Below are positions 1,833 to 4,006 of a stretch of DNA of 54,015 bases, piece by piece. Source of the DNA: Gammaproteobacteria bacterium (GTDB lineage: Bacteria; Pseudomonadota; Gammaproteobacteria; SZUA-21); contig QILK01000008.1 in NCBI GenBank assembly GCA_003233345.1, positions 1-54,015 on the forward strand, written 5' to 3'. The notes below the pieces were generated by a model. That model was not told the DNA's origin, made no database searches, and saw only the letters and a list, made by a program, of their open reading frames with translations. Numbering within the stretch: position 1 is the first letter of the stretch; each line of letters starts with the position of its first letter. A program made the position numbers and the translations under genes.

Positions 1833-1865
1833 TTCAGCTTAAATTCAGGTTAATGTCACTATAGT
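1833..1865 (+). promoter_or_regulatory. Direct-repeat promoter: TTCAG-N6-TTCAG-N11-TATAGT
   Basis: TTCAG at 1833 and 1844 (11-bp period), TATAGT at 1860; upstream of the 1981 gene. Confidence 0.6.
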
Positions 1866-1980
1866 ACACACTATATCGAGGCATTCGCAAGGCAGAGCAT
1901 CGCATTGTAAAGACAGCCATAATAATTGTATAGCTGGATCTGAATCAAAATACCAGACTGGTAATACAAGGAGAAGTCAG

Positions 1981-2472
1981 ATGAACACGTTAAAATATTT
2001 TCCATTACTATTAATATTGTTTGCAACTACTGCATTCAGTTATGATAGACAGACGGAGTCGAGAGCTAAGCAACTAGAGACAAGTTCGTGGCATATGGTT
2101 GATATGATTGCGCGCCGTGTCGGAGACGCTAGATTAACAAGCGATGTTCGCCGATTAGCCCGTGCCGCCAGTGTGCTAAAATTTTCGGCTCGCCGTGGTG
2201 ATTTTAAAAATGTTATTGACAGAGATTTTCATCAGGTCGAGTCGCTGTACAAACATGTGTTCGGTTCATTCACAAATGCGCATTATGCACACCATAGACT
2301 GCACGAGCAATCTGATTTTAGAGCCTTACAGGCAAAGTTTTTTGCATTAAGGGCCTCTATTCAAGGTGTCCCTTACCGTCCACAGCACCAACTACCGCAG
2401 GGTCATACTCATGGCAATCAGCATGGCCAGAGACACGGTAGAGGTCATGGGCATGCAGTAGCACCGCACTAG
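1981..2472 (+). CDS. Small secreted protein with His-rich C-terminal tail; paralogue of the 3602-4006 product
   Basis: Signal peptide MNTLKYFPLLLILFATTAFS, then YDR; tail HTHGNQHGQRHGRGHGHAVAPH; RBS-like 'aaggagaag' upstream. Confidence 0.75.
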   Translation: MNTLKYFPLLLILFATTAFSYDRQTESRAKQLETSSWHMVDMIARRVGDARLTSDVRRLARAASVLKFSARRGDFKNVIDRDFHQVESLYKHVFGSFTNAHYAHHRLHEQSDFRALQAKFFALRASIQGVPYRPQHQLPQGHTHGNQHGQRHGRGHGHAVAPH

Positions 2473-2621
2473 ATTTTTTAAGTTTGTTGTACACCGATGG
2501 TTGGGCGCACTCTCCTAAACGTTCCAAGCCTAGCCTAGCTTGCTCAATCATCGGTTTTTTAATTCCCGCCATATAGATCTATCGTTTTCATTCAAACAGC
2601 TGTTATTAACTTTATACCCGG

Positions 2622-2654
2622 TTCAGGCGATGTTCAGTATCAACTATCTATAGT
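2622..2654 (+). promoter_or_regulatory. Direct-repeat promoter: TTCAG-N6-TTCAG-N11-TATAGT
   Basis: TTCAG at 2622 and 2633, TATAGT at 2649; same geometry as the other two promoters. Confidence 0.6.
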
Positions 2655-2660
2655 GCGCTC

Positions 2661-3110
2661 ATGCTACAACAAACACATCAATCTGTTTTTACCTGCCTTA
2701 AGGCCTTATCCCTTATGTGTTTATTGTTTGTGTCATTCGCGCATGGCGAAAAATCGTCGATTAATATTGATAACTTATTTACTACGCTAGAAATGAACGT
2801 CAGCAAACTCGCCAAAATATCTAGCCAAGCGGACGCCAATGTATTTGCGTCGAGTAAACGTCTACTGCTAAAACTTCGCCATTATCGGGGAGCGATTCTA
2901 ATCAGTAACCGAGAACAGCTCTATCGTAACGAATATTTAAGTTTGTTACTTAGCTACTCTGATTTGCAAAGAAGCGCTAAAAATGCCCATAATTTGTTAG
3001 AAATAAATAGGGTTCGCATTATAATGGAGCAGCTTAGGCGTAAAATTATAGAACTTGAGCAGTTCAGAAACAGCTATCATGGCCCTGAAAATAACATCAG
3101 TACTCTATAG
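2661..3110 (+). CDS. Small secreted helical protein of unknown function
   Basis: Predicted signal peptide (LKALSLMCLLFVSFAHG) followed by a helix-rich, charged sequence; third member of the local cluster by position and promoter. Confidence 0.6.
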   Translation: MLQQTHQSVFTCLKALSLMCLLFVSFAHGEKSSINIDNLFTTLEMNVSKLAKISSQADANVFASSKRLLLKLRHYRGAILISNREQLYRNEYLSLLLSYSDLQRSAKNAHNLLEINRVRIIMEQLRRKIIELEQFRNSYHGPENNISTL

Positions 3111-3463
3111 TCGCCGCGTGAAAAAAGGGCATTGCTATGTCAAGGTTTTATCCAATCTGGCCTGATGGTGGAATTATACATGTGTTTTAAATGAGAATAT
3201 CCTTTTTGCTTGCTTGAACATCATCAAAAAATTAATTAAAATAGCACTTGTTTAGAATAACTTAATAACCATAAACTAATTTACGTTTATTAATGTGTTG
3301 GCAACGCCACTGTTTTTGCACAACTAAGTTATGTAATGTTGCCAATATTTTGTTATTATTGTTCAGCGGGGGTTCAGTTAATATTTCATCTATTTAGCAA
3401 GTAATATTCACCAGAAATAATTTGTTTTTATAGGTAAAAATCAAGCAACTATCGTGAATCTCG

Positions 3464-3496
3464 TTCAGCCTTAATTCAGTTAGGGTTGCGTATAGT
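3464..3496 (+). promoter_or_regulatory. Direct-repeat promoter: TTCAG-N6-TTCAG-N11-TATAGT
   Basis: TTCAG at 3464 and 3475, TATAGT at 3491; upstream of the 3602 gene. Confidence 0.6.
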
Positions 3497-3601
3497 TATA
3501 CATAATAAATTGCCGGACTGTTCAGGGACAAAACTAAAAGTGTTCAGCACTAGTTCAGCGTTTAGGAGCTCTTAATTCATAAACTTTCAGGAGATTTAAA
3601 A

Positions 3602-4006
3602 ATGAGATTGGTAAAAACACTTCCATTATTGTTACTGATGGTAGCCGGATCAGCATTTTCTTATGACCGTGGTCTTTCGTTTAAAGCGAATTCATTGGAA
3701 CGTGCGGCGTACCGCCTTGCACATACGATTCGTCACCGTAGTGGTTACAGCCATGCACATGGTGATGCGAAAAGATTTGCTCGTGAAGTTCGTCATTTCA
3801 AACGTTCAATTCATAATGGTGCAAATTACCACCACTTGAATAGAGATTTTCGGCATATTCGTACTAAGTATAATCGTTTAATGCATAGTGTAAATCGTTC
3901 ACATCGTTTACACCATTCTCGCCATGTTAGCGCCGATATTCGCTCAATGCGACATAAATTCCGCCGTTTGCATGATGAGATACACCATCGGCTAGGCCAT
4001 CATTAA
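3602..4006 (+). CDS. Small secreted, very basic, His-rich protein (about 20 His in 134 aa)
   Basis: Signal peptide MRLVKTLPLLLLMVAGSAFS, then YDR; alignable with the 1981 product (FSYDR, RDF, HHRLH/HHSRH, DxRxxxxKFxxL). Confidence 0.75.
   Translation: MRLVKTLPLLLLMVAGSAFSYDRGLSFKANSLERAAYRLAHTIRHRSGYSHAHGDAKRFAREVRHFKRSIHNGANYHHLNRDFRHIRTKYNRLMHSVNRSHRLHHSRHVSADIRSMRHKFRRLHDEIHHRLGHH

Follow-up and report, generated by a model that had tools for sequence, protein, structure and literature searches.

In Pseudomonas aeruginosa, PhoP sites take the form RTTCAG-N5-RTTCAG (PMC7916210, PMC3156716). The consensus CGTTCAGNNNNNRTTCAG is based on ChIP-seq and gel shifts, together with a site mutation at retS (PMC7916210; see also PMC3156716), and is also written with an optional leading C, i.e., (C)GTTCAGNNNNNRTTCAG (PMC7916210, PMC3156716). 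When we inspected the sequence of the oprH-phoP-phoQ promoter region of this organism, it revealed the arrangement TTCAG-N6-TTCAG-N6-TTCAG-N6-TTCAG-N11-TACTCT. The window considered here, which is the whole analysed stretch of 54,015 nucleotides, contains three promoters with the layout TTCAG-N6-TTCAG-N11-TATAGT, each upstream of a gene for a small secreted protein. A sequence-only reading had not recognized TTCAG as the half-site of any named regulator; it is, however, the half-site of P. aeruginosa PhoP. Judged from the sequence, the three sites are very probably PhoP boxes in class II promoters under the control of a PhoP–PhoQ system encoded on contig C128.

Promoters and genes in the window

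All positions of the TTCAG pentamers and TATAGT hexamers reported by the sequence-only reading were correct (Table 1). The second TTCAG is preceded by a purine in all three boxes, and all three, like most sites in the genome, match the RTTCAG-N5-RTTCAG direct repeat of the P. aeruginosa type. Furthermore, we could identify two additional TTCAG-N6-TTCAG pairs in the region upstream of the third gene. For the pair within the predicted 5' UTR, a role as repressor box was considered.

Table 1. Positions of promoter elements and genes in the window.
Feature	Position	Strand	Remarks
PhoP box 1, TTCAG-N6-TTCAG	1833..1848	+	Half-sites at 1833 and 1844; spacer ends in a purine, in agreement with the P. 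aeruginosa consensus
-10 element TATAGT	1860..1865	+	11 nt 3' of box 1
Target gene 1	1981..2472	+	Encodes a basic secreted protein of 163 aa whose tail is His-rich; paralogue of 3602
Intrinsic-terminator-like hairpin with U run	2493..2560	+	Between gene 1 and promoter 2; -23.1 kcal/mol, z -3.7
PhoP box 2	2622..2637	+	Half-sites at 2622 and 2633
-10 element TATAGT	2649..2654	+	11 nt 3' of box 2
Target gene 2	2661..3110	+	149-aa secreted protein; ATG 6 nt past the -10 element
Extra TTCAG-N6-TTCAG pair	3362..3377	+	5' of promoter 3; imperfect -10 element, TCTATT
PhoP box 3	3464..3479	+	Half-sites at 3464 and 3475
-10 element TATAGT	3491..3496	+	11 nt 3' of box 3
Extra TTCAG-N6-TTCAG pair	3543..3558	+	Inside the predicted 5' UTR of gene 3602
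Target gene 3	3602..4006	+	Encodes a basic, His-rich secreted protein of 134 aa; four-helix bundle predicted

The hairpin with its U run separates genes 1981 and 2661, which are therefore probably transcribed separately. Owing to the short distance between TATAGT and the ATG (window 2649-2663), the mRNA of gene 2661 is predicted to be leaderless, and no suitable later start codon would retain the signal peptide. The products of 1981 and 3602 are paralogues with 31% identity. Comparison of the 2661 product with this family yielded an hhalign probability of only 10%; by sequence, it may be a very distant member at most.

Two further reading frames lie 5' of the array. A cytochrome c gene is found at 884-1354, and this neighbourhood is kept in a sister genome (L244); a cytochrome resembling its product is a direct target of the motif in another family (L256). 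A short open reading frame at 290-598 matches a carbonic anhydrase profile in its central part only (141-196 of 254) and is probably a remnant.

The regulator and its distribution

According to the sequence-only reading, the window lacks a response-regulator gene, and indeed none of the OmpR type is listed on contig C3. On contig C128, a perfect site precedes an operon for a glycine-zipper protein (PF05433), a His-rich secreted protein, a response regulator, and a histidine kinase, the latter gene being interrupted by the contig end. This site lies 1.29 kb 5' of phoP, where the sister genome has a site with one mismatch; from its presence, the phoPQ operon is predicted to be autoregulated. The best NCBIfam model for the regulator is PhoP, with a score (215 bits) under the cut-off of 336, which also applies to P. 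aeruginosa PhoP (270 bits). The regulator shares 52% identity with PhoP of P. aeruginosa and 42% with that of E. coli, and its recognition helix (NVIEVFVGRLRKKL) is nearly the same as that of P. aeruginosa PhoP (NVIEVLVGRLRRKL). A maximum-likelihood tree placed it within a clade of 34 sequences (support 100/99) that also includes PhoP from both E. coli and P. aeruginosa; the other 31 members are motif-linked regulators or related ones. FeuP, PmrA, QseB, CusR, OmpR, RstA, and the eight other full-length OmpR-type regulators of the host fall outside; the mutual order of these rows is unsure, since several have long branches. For the kinase, the complete sequence from the sister genome was used. 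Its catalytic core fits PhoQ best (211 bits versus 97 for the next model). The periplasmic sensor domain, however, is long and unlike that of PhoQ from E. coli or P. aeruginosa, and Mg2+ may therefore not be the signal.

We extended the analysis to 141 genomes of the class, most of them the only representative of their family, and counted a genome as carrying this PhoP for best matches down to 51% identity. The full pattern occurred in 49 of the 60 genomes with this PhoP and in 3 of the 81 without it (p about 2e-23 by Fisher's test, although relatedness limits the independence of the genomes). Among the exceptions, G029 has a PhoP homologue split across two overlapping frames, G002 is an incomplete assembly with seven sites and no PhoP detected, and G034 is likewise incomplete. 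In 37 genomes, a site is located upstream of phoP itself, on the same strand and 0.3-1.5 kb away. In other classes of the phylum, the full pattern is rare yet present.

Another OmpR-family regulator with a near-identical site, be it BqsR/CarR-like, PmrA-like, or QseB-like, might drive the promoters instead. The BqsR operator TTAAG-N6-TTAAG differs by one base from TTCAG, its last pentamer contacts RNA polymerase, and upstream pentamers add activity. BqsR, our initial candidate, was dropped in view of the exact agreement with both the PhoP consensus and the oprH promoter. We regard control by such a regulator as improbable: every half-site of the window boxes reads TTCAG, the same TTCAG stands in the promoter of P. 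aeruginosa phoP itself, and the motif-associated regulator of the 37 genomes groups with PhoP and not with the PmrA or QseB subfamilies, both of which lie outside the motif clade (BqsR was not among the sequences of the tree).

The assignment of the window promoters to the class II promoters of a PhoP regulon is supported by the match to the consensus, the presence of PhoP and PhoQ on C128 behind a site of their own, the position of the regulator in the PhoP clade, and the co-occurrence across 141 genomes. From these sites with their fixed geometry, a regulator of known phylogenetic identity, and its association with both the motif and its own promoter, we infer signal, phosphorylation, binding, and direction of activation as follows. 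An envelope or cation signal would activate PhoP–PhoQ, and phosphorylated PhoP would form a head-to-tail dimer on the two TTCAG half-sites, with the downstream one at about -35. PhoP would then recruit sigma-70 RNA polymerase to the -10 hexamer, located exactly 11 nt further on, so that each of the three secreted-protein genes would be switched on separately. The same would hold for about eight further transcription units, among them the glycine-zipper/phoP/phoQ operon.

Genome-wide sites and regulon content

A genome scan, proposed as a check by the sequence-only reading, covered 3.89 Mb on 274 contigs, with the reversed pattern as control. It returned 27 TTCAG-N6-TTCAG pairs (7 in the control) and 11 matches to TTCAG-N6-TTCAG-N11-TANNNT (0 in the control), and a purine precedes the second TTCAG in all 11. 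Of the 27 pairs, 11 have TANNNT at a distance of 11 nt, compared to at most 4 at every other distance tested (0 to 39). The proposed class II geometry of the OmpR/PhoB family, with 11-bp tandem half-sites abutting the -35 position and a fixed distance to the -10 element, is thereby borne out. Arrays of four half-sites in 11-bp steps were found on contigs C4 and C12. The suggestion of an undescribed regulon dedicated to the three window proteins was not supported: the regulon is most probably that of PhoP, and about 11 promoters with this layout, including that of phoP-phoQ, are scattered across the host genome.

The identical layout could also have been inherited mainly by tandem duplication of one promoter-gene unit, with no regulatory meaning. 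The paralogy of 1981 and 3602 speaks for this, with 2661 as a possible distant paralogue, and part of the layout may indeed reflect shared ancestry. However, numerous unrelated genes in the host and across the class have this promoter layout, while spacers and flanks differ; as a full explanation, duplication is already refuted by the genome-wide distribution and is very improbable. Chance occurrence in AT-rich intergenic DNA, for which the shortness of the half-sites and single loose-pair matches within coding sequence could be cited, is negligible, as none of 100 dinucleotide shuffles contains the exact 33-bp pattern TTCAG-N6-TTCAG-N11-TATAGT, compared to three occurrences in the window, in line with the 11 versus 0 of the genome scan; the pair alone occurs five times, with a shuffle mean of 0.14.

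Besides the window genes and the phoPQ operon, the PhoP-type sites of the host precede genes for small secreted proteins rich in His and Gly on contigs C12, C89, and C62. Further sites precede a small lipoprotein gene on C46, a cytochrome c gene on C54, and the gene of a PLD-family protein on C56. On C4, the target is a protein of 84 residues that lacks a signal peptide and has the site in both relatives, too. Class-wide, 75 of 91 site-linked genes encode a signal-like N-terminus, compared to 59 of 189 controls. The combination of such an N-terminus with at least 5% His was found for 33 of the 91 and 4 of the 189, and CxxCH in 13 of the 91. The controls are genes after intergenic gaps at other loci, not from the same genomes. 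Since signal peptides were called by a crude hydrophobicity rule and gene starts were picked automatically in favour of signal-like starts, for controls likewise, the ratios are more telling than the absolute counts.

Two observations on individual targets are added here. A small protein without signal peptide, AFxDxxxGxxYxSxxxDGxxAxIHxLDGLP-like (L077:5715-5969, L079, L084, L097, and L277), has the motif in front in five genomes from several families; the host copy has no Pfam match. At L072:2425-4440, a His-rich PhoP-box gene lies directly 3' of a CueO-like multicopper oxidase gene and adjoins copper-efflux-like genes, a neighbourhood hinting at a copper link for this gene.

The window proteins form a lineage-specific family with a predicted four-helix fold. 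A profile search of 56 genomes found ten members, confined to the three genomes of the host's family, and seven of the ten have a perfect site at most 150 bp away. Of the five profile seeds, three had been found via the motif and the other two come from the window itself, so that independent support for the link between family and motif is smaller than this count; among the five further members, two show a perfect site and another one an imperfect array. AlphaFold2, run on the three window proteins, predicted a four-helix bundle for the 3602 product (pLDDT 86, pTM 0.77). Neither the window proteins nor the His-rich targets could be assigned convincingly to a family with Pfam and NCBIfam, and a PDB sequence search gave only weak SRP68 helix matches. 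The fold search yielded nothing significant (best E 0.43, for a ROP-like four-helix bundle and copper storage proteins), and no function is therefore claimed from the fold. Our best guess is that the window proteins protect the envelope, either through metal cations bound by His or by stabilizing a cation-poor outer membrane.

The regulator itself is already known; what is noteworthy is the content of its regulon in the host lineage and the class. That PhoP in related bacteria is a switch mainly for small secreted, often His-rich proteins and periplasmic cytochromes looks new, and our literature search, with incomplete journal coverage, found no report of a His-rich or cytochrome PhoP core. 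More tentatively, uncultured and environmental Gammaproteobacteria might retain an ancestral, largely undescribed PhoP core regulon of small secreted His-rich proteins, periplasmic c-type cytochromes, and a glycine-zipper outer-membrane protein for a periplasmic metal, redox, or envelope response, of which the Mg2+/lipid A regulons of pathogens would be specialized derivatives. With a 33-bp pattern that has almost no background, PhoP regulons become readable in unculturable genomes, and small secreted families unnamed in databases gain a candidate regulator and a condition (envelope or divalent-cation stress). The pattern also suggests that PhoP controls more than the well-known regulons described in pathogens.

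Comparison with described systems

The BqsR/CarR operator of P. aeruginosa shares the geometry, the additive upstream half-sites, and the last half-site at -35; it differs by one base in each half-site and belongs to another regulator. FeuNPQ of Sinorhizobium and DbfQRS of Vibrio resemble the C128 operon in that a small periplasmic protein gene lies just before the regulator and kinase genes. However, FeuP, though 52% identical, falls outside the motif clade, and the small protein before PhoP in the host, which had appeared PepSY-like by eye, has no Pfam PepSY match. Upstream of Sinorhizobium feuN (L243:3641), an imperfect TTCAT-N6-TTCAG-N11-TAATGA precedes feuNPQ, which suggests that FeuP may share the PhoP box. 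The closest named regulator (55% identity), on a Cupriavidus metallidurans megaplasmid, has TTCAG-N6-TTCAG 400 bp 5' of its gene, with no TANNNT at N11 (L242:3602).

The enterobacterial PhoP box, a (T/G)GTTTA repeat, has the same 11-bp period, an equal distance to the -10 element, and a homologous regulator with a similar recognition helix. Differences concern the half-site (GTTTA versus GTTCA(G) in the host) and the identity of the regulators noted above. In the E. coli phoP promoter, GTTTA-N6-GTTTA-N12-CATAAT reproduces the window geometry if the sites are read in the GTTCA register, shifted by one base. The agreement with P. aeruginosa PhoP applies to TTCAG at 11-bp steps, the purine before the second TTCAG, N11 to TANNNT, arrays of up to four half-sites, the site at the phoPQ operon, and a small envelope protein as the first gene of this operon. 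The described targets in P. aeruginosa are oprH, pagP, arn, slyB, and lipid-related genes, whereas the host sites precede genes for small secreted His-rich proteins, cytochromes, a PLD-family protein, and a glycine-zipper protein, under a kinase with a different sensor domain.
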